A DNA stretch of 64,000 nt, from the NCBI GenBank assembly GCA_022567155.1, contig JADFHN010000012.1, forward strand, positions 1-64,000. The letters are read 5' to 3'. This DNA is from Bacteroidota bacterium. GTDB taxonomy: Bacteria > Bacteroidota > Bacteroidia > Cytophagales > Cyclobacteriaceae. Below are positions 36,406 to 42,179 of this stretch, in pieces. The notes under the pieces were generated by a model. The model saw only the letters and a program-made list of their open reading frames with translations. It searched no databases and was not told where the DNA came from. The translations under genes and the position numbers were made by a program. How positions within the stretch are numbered: the first letter of the stretch is position 1; each line of letters starts with the position of its first letter.

Positions 36406-39400
36406 TCAGAATCCTTCATCATCATCATCCGAAACATCCTTCTTTTTTTCCTCATCGGCCTGTATATCTGCGCCCAGGTCATAAGGTTCCTTAATCCCGT
36501 AATAAATCCGGCGGAATTCATTAACAAAGCTCTGGGTTTCACCACGATCGCCAGGGGCAAACACAAACTCATTGATTTTTGTTTTTCCCTGATTGGTTTT
36601 TTGTTTGACCAGGTCATTCAGCTCCTTTACTGAAGAATAAATAAGCAGTTTGTTATCCTCATAACTGAAATAGTACCAATATTCAGGCGCTGCTTTGATA
36701 AACAGGTCGATCCGGTCGCCGTCAACCCCTTTTCGAATCTCAAAAAAGCTTTCAAAAGATGCATTAATATCGTTACGAAGAACATTTGAAATACCCAGAA
36801 CCCCCTTATCGTTATAAAATGCTTTCTGATCGTCCGACCACTTCAAACTAAGCTCGCTGAACGTAAATGGTTTTACCAGTTTTGGCGACATGGAGGCAAG
36901 CGGAATATAGGCTTCCGATGATCGTTTTTCGTATTCTTTCGCGGCTTTGTCGCCAATCATATCTGCAAGTTTAAATAACAGCGTAGTGCGGTCTTCAATA
37001 GCTTCCGGAGGTCCCAGCAGGTCGATCGCCTGAAGAAAACCGTCGCTCATAATTTCGTAAATTCCTGTGGGCACCTGGAAGTCCATGGTAAGAAATACAT
37101 CAAAACTAAATTCATTGGTTTCCAGGTTGCCGTCGCCGATTACGGTCGCATAGATGTTCCGGTCCTTATTGTTTTCGATAAAGCTTACGGGACCTTCAAT
37201 ATGTAGGTGGGAGGTTTCTTCCTTGTAAACCATCATTTTACCTGCATATGATAGCCCGAGATCCTTATCCTGTTCAACAATGACATATTCACTGCTGTCC
37301 GGCCTGAAACTCAGCAACCCATTGGGGATAAAAAAATCTTCATCGCCAACTTCGCGTTTGTCATTTATGAACGTACTGTACAGGCTGTAATCCCTGTAGT
37401 CGAAATGCAGGCCTGCGGTCAGCTTCTGGTCGAATTCCGTCAGACTGTAATCGAAATCAAGAATAACTTCCTGTTGCTCGGCATCACTCTCATATTGAAT
37501 CCAGGTATTATAATCGCTGATCTTTTTCAAATCAAGTTTTATAAATCCATCAAGCTTAAGCGCAGGCTTTTGGGCTTCCATGATAATATTTCCGCGGTAG
37601 AGCATTCCTGGCGATATAAGCAGCGCTTCTTTTTCCGAAACCAATCCATTCGCTACAGTTTGTAGTTCGTTTGTGCTTCTTCTCTTTTTGTCGGTTATTG
37701 GTTCAAGCCTGAAATTTTCAAGTTTGATGGCGAACGTATCCTGAACGGCATTTATAAAGCGATAGGTAGCAGACCCCGAAAATTCGTTTCTTGAAATAAT
37801 GTCAATGTTTCCATCATATAGCTGGTGGTATGCATAAAGTGTATCAATTATCAGTGTGGTGTTGGAAAGACTGCCGATCCGGGAATTTTCAAGAATCAGT
37901 ACTTCGCCGTTTTCCGGCGTTATTTTAGCATCAGCTACAGTGATATAGGGTATGCCGCTTACTGTTAATTCCAGCGTGTTGATGTCATATACCGCCTGGG
38001 TGGCATTGAAGCTTAGCGAATCCAGGTCTTCCCTGGTGGTATAAAAATAAGAATACTGAATATCTACATTCTCAGGTTTACTCATGGTAACCTTTGATTC
38101 GGCCAAATCCCATACCGCTGTAGGAATAGATGTTTTGAATTGTGCATATGGAAATTCCAGGGCTGCCTCCCCTTCAATTTCAGGGCTGATGGTGACGGTG
38201 TTTCTTAGCAGGTCAAAATTGAGACGGATATCATTACCTGCCAGCGCCGGTTTTTCCGGATCAGACGACTTAATTTCAAAATCAGCGTGCCTGGCTCTAA
38301 TGCGATCGTATTGAAAGTTATATGCTTTTGAAACTGTTTCAGAACCAAGGCTGATCAGTTTGCCTTTTCCGAACACGCCCTTATGGGTTAAGGTAGTTAG
38401 CCCGTCCAGTGATGCCAGGCCGTCGTATAATTTTATGTGCGAATCGTTGTTCCGGATATGCATACTGTCAACCGAGGGCAACCATTTCATATCAAAATTT
38501 TCGACATATATTTTTGGGTAGATCAGGCCATTAAACTCTTCTTCCTTCATATCAAACGTCAGCCCTTTTGTTGTAATCGAATCAGGATAGTAAATAAAGT
38601 CTTCTGACTGGATAGTTGTCGTGAGATATTCCATTTTCCCTTCACTTCTCAGCCCGCGCTTATCAAGAATGATCCGGTTAAAAATGCGGGCATCTCCATT
38701 AAAAAGCGGGTACCCCTCTTGGGTAACGCTATGGTCAAACCCAAGTGAATTGTCCGCCATAATATGCAATTTCTCTTTAAATTCGGGCATCATGCCACGC
38801 GAGTGAAATGTGCCAGCAAAGTTGATGGCAGCTGGATCGCTGTCACTCAGACTATCCAGATCAAATGGGGGAAGAACAAAATAGAGTGATTTGCCATATA
38901 CACCGTCCATATATTCTTTGCCGGAAAAATATACGATTGACCCCATGCCTCCTCCACTAAACCTGGGATATTCTGGATACACTTTTCGACCGGCTTTGTT
39001 ATCGGGTTTGTTTACATAAAGCGTACCCGAAGTGCCCTGAAATTCACCTAAACCTGCGATGTCTAAGGAGTCTTCTTCTGTGATCCCGGCTATCACGTTA
39101 TCAATCTTCGTTTTTTTGGAGGAACGGCTGTTCTCATCCTGAATATAAAACCGGATTTTCTCAATGTTGTTCAGATCGATAAGAAAACTATCATACCTGA
39201 AATTAAAATCCTTACCCACATACTCGAAATTGCCTGCAAACAGCCTGCCATTAAATTTAAAGCTACGGTTTTCGCCCATTGTAATCCGATTACTGTCGGG
39301 TATGATATACACATCCAGCTCTTGGGATATATAAAATTTTTCAATTCCGTTTATATATATTTCGTCTGCTTCCAAGTCGAATATGACGTTAGGCCCGGAT

Positions 39401-41208
39401 GATACGTTAGAAAGAATCAGTAAGTTATCGTAATCCACTTTTCCTCTTTTTGCCATAAAGTAGTGCCTGGCTTTTTTCTTCAGGGTAAAGGTGTAAGTAT
39501 TGCGGTCATAATTTATATAACCCCACTGAGCCAGTTCTTTCATTGCATTTTCTACCGTATTCGGATTGAGGTCATACTGTTTTGCAATCACATCGGGGAG
39601 AACTTCCTGGCCTTTGTTTTTCCTTACAAAATCTACGGCAAGCATCAACGGATTAAAACCATAATTTTTCGACAAAGCATGCAATATTTGTGCATTGTAA
39701 TATTCTTCGGACTGAAATATGACAGGCAATTCAGATCGTCCGCTGATAATGGATATTTCGAGGCTGTCGGAATTCAGGTTCCATTTAATAATATCAGCCG
39801 TTATGTCCATATTGATAAAACTGGAGTAGAAGGGGGTATATATGTAATTGCCATCGGCACTACGTACAATAAGATCCCGGGTATATGGATTATATCTTAT
39901 GATTGCAGATGGATGAAAAATGGAATCCATTTTATGATAAATGGTAACTGAACTGCTGGATGATTCGATAAGCGAATCCTGAATTGTAAAAAATCGTGCA
40001 ATCGCCTTGAACCTGATAACTCCCTGATCTTCAACACTCAATACCGAAATTCCAAGCATTTGCGACACTGTGATGATCTGATCGCCTGCCAATGTAAATC
40101 CTCCTGATAATGAGGTGCCTGAACCTTCCTTAATCCGGATTCGTATATCATCTTTATAGGACACAAACCTGATCCCTGATTTACCTTTTTTACCATCATA
40201 GCTGAATTCTCCTTCGATGGGTGCTTCGATTTTATCCGGATATTCCAGCTTAACTGCCTTTGCACCGAAATCCGGACGACGTACATCAAAATTATATTCC
40301 GCCAGTGTTACCACAGCACGCTCTCCAAGCCCCCCGGAGGTCCAATTGACGGTGCCTTTACTTCCGGAAAACAGTCCTTTCAAAATGATAAATGAGCCTG
40401 ACGTATTTTTTATTTCCGCTTCCTTCTTAGCCGAAATTATTTTAAGATCGGTCTTATGAAAGGTAATAACGGGTCCCTCAAGGGGAGGAGGTGGATCCGG
40501 AAAATATTCCTCTTCCAATTCCTCCCCTGCATAATTATCTTCACTGTAATCATCTTCGTACGTGTCGTATCCGTAATCATCCTCATATTCATCTTCATCT
40601 TCATCTTCATAATATTCGTCTTCGTCCTCCGCATATTCATCTTCATAAAATGCATCCTGGTTTTCCTCAGCATCCATGTTGTCCACCAAAAAATCATTTA
40701 CTACGGAAGATTCATGGTATTCGAAAGTGTAACTGTGATTTGTAACGATCAGGCGGTTCGAAGAAGAAAAATACAGTGAATGGTTTTCGAAAAAATGTAT
40801 GAGCGCATTAAAATACGTAATCAGTTCCGTCGCGGAATGCAGCCTGATCACTTTTTCATTTACGTTCAACAATGCAATAAACTGCTGATCATTTAATTGC
40901 TCACTATTAATTGCAAGATCAATTATCTTAAAATATTTTAGATAGTAGGGTTTGATTTTATAGTTATGTTCAACCATGGCTTTCGCATGATTGATAATTT
41001 TAATCCGCTGGTCAGGTCCGAAACTCACCCAAAGTTTTTCAAAACTTTCTCCTATATCCATTGCTTCAGCAGATGAAGCTTTTGCAAGGTTTTCTTTTAC
41101 CCAGATTCCGAATTCATCTACGTTATCCGGAAGATCAAATTGCTGGGCCTTGACCATTGTAGCGGTCATGATAAGCATTACGGATAGTATAACTTGTATT
41201 TTCTTCAC
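36406..41208 (-). CDS. Giant exported protein of unknown function
   Basis: About 1,600 residues. The GTG at 41208 gives MKKIQVILSVMLIMTATMV with cleavage near KAQQ, a clear signal peptide; an in-frame TTG at 41259 would add 17 residues before it. Residues about 25-170 are helical. Residues about 176-240 are an extreme Asp/Glu/Tyr tract followed by FPDPPPPLEGP. From about 245 on the chain is mainly beta strands with repeated filament-like units (for example FNATQAVYDINTLELTVSGI), which loosely recall OstA/LptA-type jelly-rolls. Near residues 535-570 a helical insertion (AKQYDLNPNTVENAMKELAQ, WGYINYD) resembles a winged helix. It ends in DVSDDDDEGF. No family is recognised; a structural envelope role is inference. 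Confidence 0.8.
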   Translation of the reverse strand: MKKIQVILSVMLIMTATMVKAQQFDLPDNVDEFGIWVKENLAKASSAEAMDIGESFEKLWVSFGPDQRIKIINHAKAMVEHNYKIKPYYLKYFKIIDLAINSEQLNDQQFIALLNVNEKVIRLHSATELITYFNALIHFFENHSLYFSSSNRLIVTNHSYTFEYHESSVVNDFLVDNMDAEENQDAFYEDEYAEDEDEYYEDEDEDEYEDDYGYDTYEDDYSEDNYAGEELEEEYFPDPPPPLEGPVITFHKTDLKIISAKKEAEIKNTSGSFIILKGLFSGSKGTVNWTSGGLGERAVVTLAEYNFDVRRPDFGAKAVKLEYPDKIEAPIEGEFSYDGKKGKSGIRFVSYKDDIRIRIKEGSGTSLSGGFTLAGDQIITVSQMLGISVLSVEDQGVIRFKAIARFFTIQDSLIESSSSSVTIYHKMDSIFHPSAIIRYNPYTRDLIVRSADGNYIYTPFYSSFINMDITADIIKWNLNSDSLEISIISGRSELPVIFQSEEYYNAQILHALSKNYGFNPLMLAVDFVRKNKGQEVLPDVIAKQYDLNPNTVENAMKELAQWGYINYDRNTYTFTLKKKARHYFMAKRGKVDYDNLLILSNVSSGPNVIFDLEADEIYINGIEKFYISQELDVYIIPDSNRITMGENRSFKFNGRLFAGNFEYVGKDFNFRYDSFLIDLNNIEKIRFYIQDENSRSSKKTKIDNVIAGITEEDSLDIAGLGEFQGTSGTLYVNKPDNKAGRKVYPEYPRFSGGGMGSIVYFSGKEYMDGVYGKSLYFVLPPFDLDSLSDSDPAAINFAGTFHSRGMMPEFKEKLHIMADNSLGFDHSVTQEGYPLFNGDARIFNRIILDKRGLRSEGKMEYLTTTIQSEDFIYYPDSITTKGLTFDMKEEEFNGLIYPKIYVENFDMKWLPSVDSMHIRNNDSHIKLYDGLASLDGLTTLTHKGVFGKGKLISLGSETVSKAYNFQYDRIRARHADFEIKSSDPEKPALAGNDIRLNFDLLRNTVTISPEIEGEAALEFPYAQFKTSIPTAVWDLAESKVTMSKPENVDIQYSYFYTTREDLDSLSFNATQAVYDINTLELTVSGIPYITVADAKITPENGEVLILENSRIGSLSNTTLIIDTLYAYHQLYDGNIDIISRNEFSGSATYRFINAVQDTFAIKLENFRLEPITDKKRRSTNELQTVANGLVSEKEALLISPGMLYRGNIIMEAQKPALKLDGFIKLDLKKISDYNTWIQYESDAEQQEVILDFDYSLTEFDQKLTAGLHFDYRDYSLYSTFINDKREVGDEDFFIPNGLLSFRPDSSEYVIVEQDKDLGLSYAGKMMVYKEETSHLHIEGPVSFIENNKDRNIYATVIGDGNLETNEFSFDVFLTMDFQVPTGIYEIMSDGFLQAIDLLGPPEAIEDRTTLLFKLADMIGDKAAKEYEKRSSEAYIPLASMSPKLVKPFTFSELSLKWSDDQKAFYNDKGVLGISNVLRNDINASFESFFEIRKGVDGDRIDLFIKAAPEYWYYFSYEDNKLLIYSSVKELNDLVKQKTNQGKTKINEFVFAPGDRGETQSFVNEFRRIYYGIKEPYDLGADIQADEEKKKDVSDDDDEGF

Positions 41209-41316
41209 TAAAACAAGCCGGTTAAAACCTGAAATTCCGAAATAATTACTAATTAACAAATTACGGAGGCAACACTTTATACATTATTAAACGGGTAATT
41301 TTTGCAAACTATATAG

Positions 41317-42179
41317 CTAATCCATTAAAAATTCGCCGGATATCCACCTGTTTCGTTCGGAAAATGAAAGGTATTTCAATTGATTCAATCTTGATTTTTC
41401 CTTCATTTCATCAAGATCCGGACGATAAAATCTGCTTAAAATCAGTTTTCTGCCTGAAACCAGTAAACGTGCATAATAAGGCGTATCATACAAAAGTACA
41501 TTTTTATTGATATTGGCAAGCACGAGATCGTACCGGTTATTGCCGGCCATGTCTTCTGCCATACACTGCAAAAACCTGATTTTCCTGATATCGTTTAAAG
41601 CAGCATTTTCCTTTGTATTTTCAATCGCCCAGTCATCAATATCTATTCATGTCACATTTTTTGACCCAGGCATTTTAGCAAATATGGTCAAAATTCCTGT
41701 GCCACAACCGCAATCCAGGACGTCCATGCCACTGTGATCGGTTTGTAGCTGCGCTTCTATCATCAGCGAAGTGGTTTCGTGATTTACGGTGCCAAACGAC
41801 ATTTTCAGGTCAATTACGATTTCAATATCATACGAAGCATCTGGTTCATGAAATGATTCCCTGATCCTGCATTTGCTGCCTATTTCAACTGGGCAGAAAT
41901 TTTCTTCCCACTGTTTATTCCAGTTTTGGCGTTTGATCTTTACAACCTCCAATGAAAGGCTGGCAACTTGCCTGTACCTGCTTTTCAGTTCATCCAGTAT
42001 TTTGCCTTAAAAACACTTGCAGGTACATTGGCATTAAATCCAACACTTGTTTCGATCATACTATCAAAACCTGCATCAGCAATATCAGCAAGCAGAATCT
42101 CTCTGTAGTTTTCCTTACACGAAACTTTCAGTTCAATAAAATATATGGTTAGCACACTTACACTTAAGTAAGGTGGCAC
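41317..42179 (-). pseudogene. prmA: Ribosomal protein L11 methyltransferase, inactivated
   Basis: PrmA methylates ribosomal protein L11 and is normally about 275 residues. The N-terminal part is seen as IYFIELKVSCKENYREILLA and GFDSMIETSVGFNANVP. A one-base loss at the T4 run 42000-42003 shifts the frame; homology continues as LDELKSRYRQVASLSLEVVK, then the SAM-binding site MDVLDCGCGTGILTIFA. An in-frame TGA at 41647-41649 then replaces the codon between NVT and IDIDDWAIENTKEN, and the same frame continues through YDLVLANINKNVLL to 41317. The position directly after tpiA is the usual one in Bacteroidota and supports the identification. Two lesions argue against base-calling error alone. Confidence 0.85.

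Follow-up and report, generated by a model that had tools for sequence, protein, structure and literature searches.

The window analysed here, a stretch of 64,000 nucleotides of Bacteroidota DNA, contains a gene for a giant exported protein to which the first-pass annotation, made from the sequence, could give no family name. What is this protein, and what might it do in the cell envelope? An open frame was indeed found at 36406-41208, and it encodes 1,600 amino acids, as the annotation had roughly estimated; the strand, which had been left unstated, is minus. The plus strand across the same interval contains many stops. The start codon is GTG, with an in-frame TTG upstream at 41259. Rfam and tRNA scans of the 64-kb window gave no matches. 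Pfam and NCBIfam assigned no family to the window protein; among 23 full-length homologues, no Pfam or NCBIfam family recurred in a second member at E 0.1, and the OstA/Lpt families were absent in all 23 at that threshold. The protein therefore remains without a nameable family, as claimed, and a match to a characterised family, which the annotation had named as the result that would count against it, did not appear in either collection. Among the papers listed, none was recognisable as describing this protein, which carries little weight for a protein without a name.

Several sets of homologues were used. The named loci are the best 80 of 253 related stretches; they are mostly of Cytophagales type (e.g. 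Fulvivirga, Chryseolinea and Cesiribacter), and many are metagenome bins. The 80-row alignment comprises the window protein and 79 of the 80 named loci, the fragment L035 being dropped; the 79-row alignment also drops L059, which is cut by its contig. Forty of the 80 rows made up the profile alignment of the winged helix. The 23-sequence alignment consists of the window protein and 22 of the 29 other loci from a search of 59 genomes, and 17 distant loci were chosen by hand among the matches of the 59-genome search and the phylum sample.

The giant protein was matched in 50 of the 59 genomes (own genome included, where it is the single match). In the order, at least 242 of 291 sampled genomes carried it, including at least 211 of the 252 of high quality, and in the phylum sample at least 14 of 395 genomes did, three of them outside the order and within the same class; the order and phylum counts are lower bounds, as at most two candidates were scored per genome. 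Given its presence in 50/59 genomes and in at least 242/291 of the order, the frame is not due to chance, and the protein is a real, conserved, unnamed family. All 13 genomes without a match stayed negative on a profile retest in which all candidates were scored, and the prmA regions of 10 of them held no frame of ≥70 aa resembling the giant protein (best E 0.23). Twelve of the 13 belong to the same family as the window genome; since the gene is missing there, the protein is dispensable in these genomes. Some small genomes of the order were also recorded. G057 (1.1 Mb) matched neither the giant protein nor SprA_N, PrmA or PlsY and may be a reduced symbiont. G043 and G049 (1.6 Mb each) retain the giant protein, and in G043 (93% complete) it is present with no TamB match; lineages like G043 would thus be useful for testing the role of the protein.

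We examined how the protein is likely to be localised. The clear signal peptide claimed from the sequence held up: KK is followed by a hydrophobic core and then by VKA-Q. At the position inferred to be +1, Gln was present in 74 of the 80 aligned sequences, window included, and Cys in none of the 80 (both from the best 80 of 253 stretches). The +1 Gln agrees with the Q-rule of Bacteroidetes (PMC5837995 and PMC10653852). In the mature chain, the maximal 19-residue mean Kyte-Doolittle value was 1.21 for the window protein and 1.76 over the 80 sequences (best 80 of 253), a few homologues lying at a marginal 1.6-1.76. Since there is no strongly hydrophobic mature stretch, a soluble periplasmic protein is expected. 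Judged from these sequence features, the giant protein should be Sec-exported, non-lipidated, apparently unanchored and periplasmic.

The domain anatomy was determined from two AlphaFold2 models, one of residues 20-1200 (80 aligned sequences; mean pLDDT 85.5, pTM 0.62) and one of residues 850-1600 (79 aligned sequences; mean pLDDT 91.0, pTM 0.70), together with the alignments and structural comparisons (Table 1).

Table 1. Position of the giant-protein gene, its predicted parts and the adjacent gene remnant in the window.
Feature	Residues	Coordinates	Strand	Basis
Whole gene, exported protein without named family	1,600 aa	36406..41208	minus	ORF and homologue searches
Signal peptide, signal peptidase I type, Gln at +1	1-21	41146..41208	minus	alignment of 80
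Helical head	30-142	40783..41121	minus	AlphaFold2
Asp/Glu/Tyr tract, predicted disordered, variable among homologues	172-236	40501..40695	minus	AlphaFold2, alignment
Predicted LptA-like stretch 1, first part	362-502	39703..40125	minus	VIA; weak internal repeat
Predicted winged-helix insert	504-593	39430..39699	minus	VIA, profile match, homologue alignment
Predicted LptA-like stretch 1, resumed past insert	597-667	39208..39420	minus	VIA, repeat
Predicted LptA/LptD-N-like stretch 2 (one LptC row to 1112)	829-1079	37972..38724	minus	VIA, Foldseek, sub-repeat
Further predicted beta-rich body	1080-1380	37069..37971	minus	AlphaFold2
Helical segment	1381-1432	36913..37068	minus	AlphaFold2
Predicted C-terminal alpha/beta part, well conserved	1448-1570	36499..36867	minus	AlphaFold2, alignment
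Disordered acidic tail with terminal Gly-Phe	1585-1600	36409..36456	minus	AlphaFold2, alignment
Decayed prmA (ribosomal protein L11 methyltransferase) remnant		41341..42143	minus	two partial matches

The helical head, the acidic tract of about 65 residues and the long beta-rich body of the first-pass annotation were all recovered: the models place helices in the head and start the body at residue 245, and the tract between them contains 35 Asp/Glu and 11 Tyr among its 65 residues, with pLDDT below 50 across residues 169-231. The tract was rejected as an essential feature. In two distant homologues it contains just 6 acidic residues, and in L171 a single residue separates head from body. Rows L171-L173 of the distant alignment are unreliable at the N-terminus, as they show the head missing when it is found at the loci.

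We next compared the models with solved structures. In Foldseek, the top eight matches of residues 850-1600 were all LptD entries (best E 1.5e-5), and LptA 2r19 was matched at prob 0.99 and TM 0.62 by target. With residues 20-1200 the top eight were again LptD (best E 6.3e-6), and LptA 2r19 was matched at prob 0.92. One of these eight, 4q35, is LptD under a title that says only 'a membrane protein'. The long LptD alignments had a TM of 0.08-0.17 and a large rmsd, and long beta chains (an EMC subunit and ApoB, E 3e-3 to 5e-3) came behind; therefore, only the local Foldseek matches count. In VIA, the Lpt rows below 4 A (LptD, LptA, LptC and LptH) had Z 7.7-11.6 over 118-157 residues at 2.5-3.8 A and 4-14% identity, and they occupied two separate stretches, about 362-502 with 597-667, and 829-1079. 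On residues 362-502, LptA 2r1a gave Z 9.5 (121 aligned, 2.9 A) and LptC 4b54 gave Z 9.0 (118 aligned, 2.8 A). According to the warning given with VIA, Z 7-8 is reached even by models that match nothing clearly; the LptD rows appear clear of this background and the LptA/LptC rows less so, lying 1-2 units above it. An unrelated beta domain, CPAP TCP10, reached Z 8.4-8.8, but at an rmsd of 6.7-8.0 A. As for an LptD-type C-terminal barrel, structural matches were confined to the jellyroll part, VIA coverage of the 850-1600 model being stated as model residues 1-306 only. AsmA-type chains were absent among the VIA matches listed, which is evidence neither way.

Comparing the profile of the protein with itself revealed internal repeats. 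Residues 355-483 resembled 916-1040 (probability up to 38%), residues 598-647 resembled 1062-1108 (up to 80%), and a shorter repeat paired 833-919 with 925-1008 (82-89%). The repeat offset falls by about 100 residues across the winged-helix insert, which is the size of the insert; this fits two Lpt-like copies, one of them with the winged helix inserted. In addition, several VIA ranges (9fz5, 8h1r, 2r19, 6mit and 4q35) span the insert, which indicates that the winged helix sits within an Lpt-like unit. Strand amphipathicity, measured on 64 hand-picked strands of at least 5 residues, was 2.57 against 1.66 in shuffles (sd 0.14); amphipathic strands are expected for a groove and also for any beta sandwich.

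At the level of sequence, no kinship was detectable. When the beta body was searched by sequence against solved structures, no match fell below E 0.1, and hhalign, run against OstA_2 and TamB alignments built from relatives, gave a probability of 0.8% for OstA_2 and under 1% for TamB, whose rows are partial, being cut at about 1,000 aa (longest open frame of each locus). The annotation had proposed profile comparison with Lpt and TamB families as a check, and no relation emerged by that route. Its loose likening of the units to OstA/LptA jelly-rolls fared better, LptD heading both Foldseek lists and LptD, LptA and LptC both VIA lists; the repeated beta architecture that it had set beforehand as a test was also seen, in the self-comparison and in the AlphaFold2 beta units. 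We conclude that the models support an LptA/LptC/LptD-N beta-jellyroll fold for two stretches of the body. By predicted structure the protein would be a variant of Lpt-fold carriers; by sequence it stands outside all their families.

The reading that we favour, while holding the case for and against it to be about evenly balanced, is that of a giant unanchored Lpt-fold bridge or large shuttle for lipids in the periplasm. Like LptA, LptC and LptD-N, the protein has the predicted jellyroll fold and is directed to the periplasm. In contrast to the Lpt units, which are about 150-200 aa in size, it is a single chain of 1,600 aa, and it adds a helical head, an acidic tether, a winged-helix insert, a helical C-terminal part and a Gly-Phe tail. 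LptC is membrane-anchored, whereas no anchor was found here by hydropathy. Given that LptD, LptA and LptC are the nearest folds, the cargo could be LPS instead of phospholipid, with the protein as a large fused LptA/LptC-like component of the LPS route. We consider this improbable. The own genome has a separate OstA_2 protein (G000:C156, 567 aa) coexisting with the giant protein, which lacks a sequence-family match to Lpt/OstA; OstA_2 proteins occurred in 22 of 23 genomes searched, among them G003, which has no giant protein; the sequence profiles of the two proteins are unconnected; and no lpt gene was recognised alongside among the minority of neighbours identified.

An embedded winged helix had been placed at about 535-570. 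The fold is present in the model, but its extent is larger, about 504-593. Helices and a hairpin were predicted at residues 506-587, with pLDDT 85-92 in 10-residue blocks. VIA matched residues 504-593 to the winged helix of Rio2 (Z 9.1, 84 residues, 2.7 A) and to many MarR-type proteins at Z 7-8, the winged-helix range being Z 6-9. The 40-row profile matched SarA at E 6e-4, and all profile matches below E 0.05 were winged-helix proteins. PHROGs returned four weak matches (best 0.0066), every one on this segment. Pfam assigned no family to the winged helix of the window protein, and on those of 40 homologues it matched nine families, mostly of HTH type, each in one or two members. Taken together, residues 504-593 are a predicted winged helix, similar in fold to those of MarR, SarA and Rio2. 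The copy here differs from these in being inserted in an exported beta protein and in having a largely variable DNA-facing helix.

The domain was complete in all 17 hand-picked distant homologues aligned. Among the sequences from the best 80 of 253 stretches, core positions were kept (Ala555 in 78/80, Leu559 in 79/80), whereas positions 546-554 had no residue common to more than 32 of 80. The N-terminal half of the recognition helix was the most variable of seven stretches compared, with a mean entropy of 2.78 versus 2.08 for the whole domain. These results bear on whether the winged helix binds nucleic acid, the protein being a regulator or DNA-uptake factor. The MarR/SarA-type fold, with its weak sequence match, would agree with such a function, as would Arg or Lys at position 553 of the recognition helix in 56 of 80 sequences (best 80 of 253). 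The signal peptide with Gln at +1 speaks against it, as do the variability of the recognition helix and the net charge of its region, which ranges from -2 to +4 across homologues, and we give nucleic-acid binding scarcely any credence. Given that the domain is kept in 17/17 distant homologues, is most variable on the recognition helix and belongs to an exported protein, it is probably a protein-docking module.

The C-terminal tail is a second candidate docking element. The terminal Gly-Phe is invariant among close homologues: it occurred in all 79 complete sequences, window included, the 80th being cut by its contig (from the best 80 of 253). The 17 hand-picked distant homologues are less uniform: 7 terminate in Gly-Phe and 2 in Gly-Tyr or Gly-Trp, whereas the other 8 have none of these endings. 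The position of the motif, free at the chain end behind a flexible linker, is suggestive of a docking peptide. A tail code common to many proteins was rejected: the own genome has two (Asp/Glu)2-Gly-Phe-stop sites (TAA or TGA), one being the giant-protein gene and the other only a candidate gene end. With TAA or TAG as the stop, none was found in that genome.

The gene neighbourhood was compared in the window and the best 80 of 253 loci (81 loci), neighbour clusters being named by Pfam from one member each. A prmA-cluster gene lay nearby on the same strand in 65/81 loci and directly upstream of the giant-protein gene in 61/81; tpiA lay upstream of prmA in most of the 54 of these loci showing tpiA, and several contigs end early. 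In the hand-picked distant loci, prmA adjoined the giant-protein gene in 9/17. In the own genome, the only prmA matches come from a single broken gene in two pieces, the longer piece holding one TGA and one TAA. A close relative, L031, has a gap of less than 200 bp between tpiA and the giant-protein gene, with a short prmA-like remnant seen by eye. Two further genomes belong to the genus: the one that is 58% complete had no prmA match, and the other had only a weak partial match. The genus as a whole may thus have lost PrmA. In 14/81 loci (window and best 80 of 253), a small protein whose start resembles a signal sequence (e.g. L034:5265-5600) lay near or between tpiA and prmA; the single member tested was DUF6150.

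The other recurrent neighbour was plsY, whose cluster member matched PF02660, the glycerol-3-phosphate acyltransferase of phospholipid synthesis. It was the next gene downstream in 15/81 loci (window and best 80 of 253), in 5/17 hand-picked distant loci, and, on the same strand, in 11 of the 18 plsY-bearing genomes, covering 9 families (G013, G014, G027, G038, G040, G042, G045, G048, G051, G052 and G053; adjacency in G014, G038, G052 and G053 was judged from distance alone). Of the 50 genomes encoding the giant protein, 18 had plsY, against 0 of the 9 that lack it (one-sided Fisher p 0.028, kinship ignored). PF02660 was found in only 18 of the 59 genomes and was absent in 32 of the 50 giant-protein genomes, the own genome included. 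We know of no link of prmA to lipids; as prmA is an equally old neighbour, the gene order may be merely inherited. The plsY adjacency is thus a hint toward phospholipid, not proof.

Distribution also bears on whether the giant protein is a secreted or surface protein, such as an adhesin or a gliding-related protein, with a coincidentally Lpt-like body. It is large and exported and has an acidic tract, and the T9SS gene sprA occurs in 57 of the 59 genomes. However, sprA is kept in 8 of the 9 genomes without the giant protein, so presence does not track T9SS, and a T9SS link was rejected. No sorting domain was matched in Pfam or NCBIfam, and the protein is conserved with synteny across the order. 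We regard a surface role as very unlikely.

Known bridge-like transporters provide a further comparison. TamB, YhdP and YdbH are described in excerpts of PMC12045153 and PMC12977461 as AsmA-like, bridge-like phospholipid transporters, and the giant protein resembles them in its size and in a long beta body that possibly spans the periplasm. Unlike them, it has no inner-membrane anchor (by hydropathy only) and no Pfam match to a TamB (PF04357) or AsmA domain, and the own genome encodes TamB as a separate gene (G000:C117). As far as sequence features go, it thus appears to lack the defining AsmA features examined, namely the inner-membrane anchor and the TamB/AsmA domain. Since TamB and OstA_2 are separately present, the giant protein would supplement those routes.

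The favoured lipid bridge or shuttle would work as follows. The long body with its two Lpt-jellyroll stretches would offer a hydrophobic groove to a lipid, for which glycerophospholipid is our first guess. The protein would act as a trans-periplasmic bridge or a large shuttle, added to the TamB and OstA-type routes of the cell. Partners could dock at the helical head, which hangs on a flexible acidic tether, at the winged helix, and at the C-terminal part and its Gly-Phe tail. The annotation had called a bridging or lipid-transport role speculative, and what now suggests the lipid role is fold and gene context. Export, solubility, fold and conservation are drawn from sequence and prediction, whereas one continuous groove, a lipid cargo, a transport direction and partners are what we infer beyond them. 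The lack of the gene in all 13 retested genomes, and the fact that TamB and OstA_2 are in place already, weigh against this reading.

The same modules could serve a different cargo. Lpt-type jellyrolls have open edge strands. Were the protein a scaffold or factor that assembles outer-membrane proteins in the periplasm, these Lpt-like edges would capture strands and the helical modules would bind partners; the helical head, winged helix and Gly-Phe tail do resemble binding modules. Depletion of TamL in Flavobacterium johnsoniae drastically perturbed the outer-membrane proteome and the lipidome little, according to the excerpts of PMC12045153, which would suit such a factor. On the other hand, the closest structural neighbours are lipid carriers, plsY is a neighbour in part of the order, and the minority of neighbours identified included no recognisable gene for Omp85 or an outer-membrane protein. 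We judge the scaffold unlikely, though worth keeping in view beside the lipid bridge or shuttle.

We tentatively propose, with more doubt than confidence, that Bacteroidota have, across this order, a further and as yet unnamed class of lipid bridge spanning the envelope, which would be the third after the Lpt chain and the AsmA-like proteins. It would consist of one giant, soluble chain of Lpt fold that is free of the inner membrane and has short modules to dock its ends, and in part of the order its gene would lie next to plsY. Its winged helix would have been recruited to bind proteins in the extracytoplasmic space; a winged helix would then be employed outside the cytoplasm. Encoded by at least 242 of the 291 genomes sampled from the order, lacking any family model and predicted to resemble Lpt proteins in part of its fold, the giant protein is a concrete, deletable candidate for a phospholipid route to the outer membrane outside Proteobacteria.
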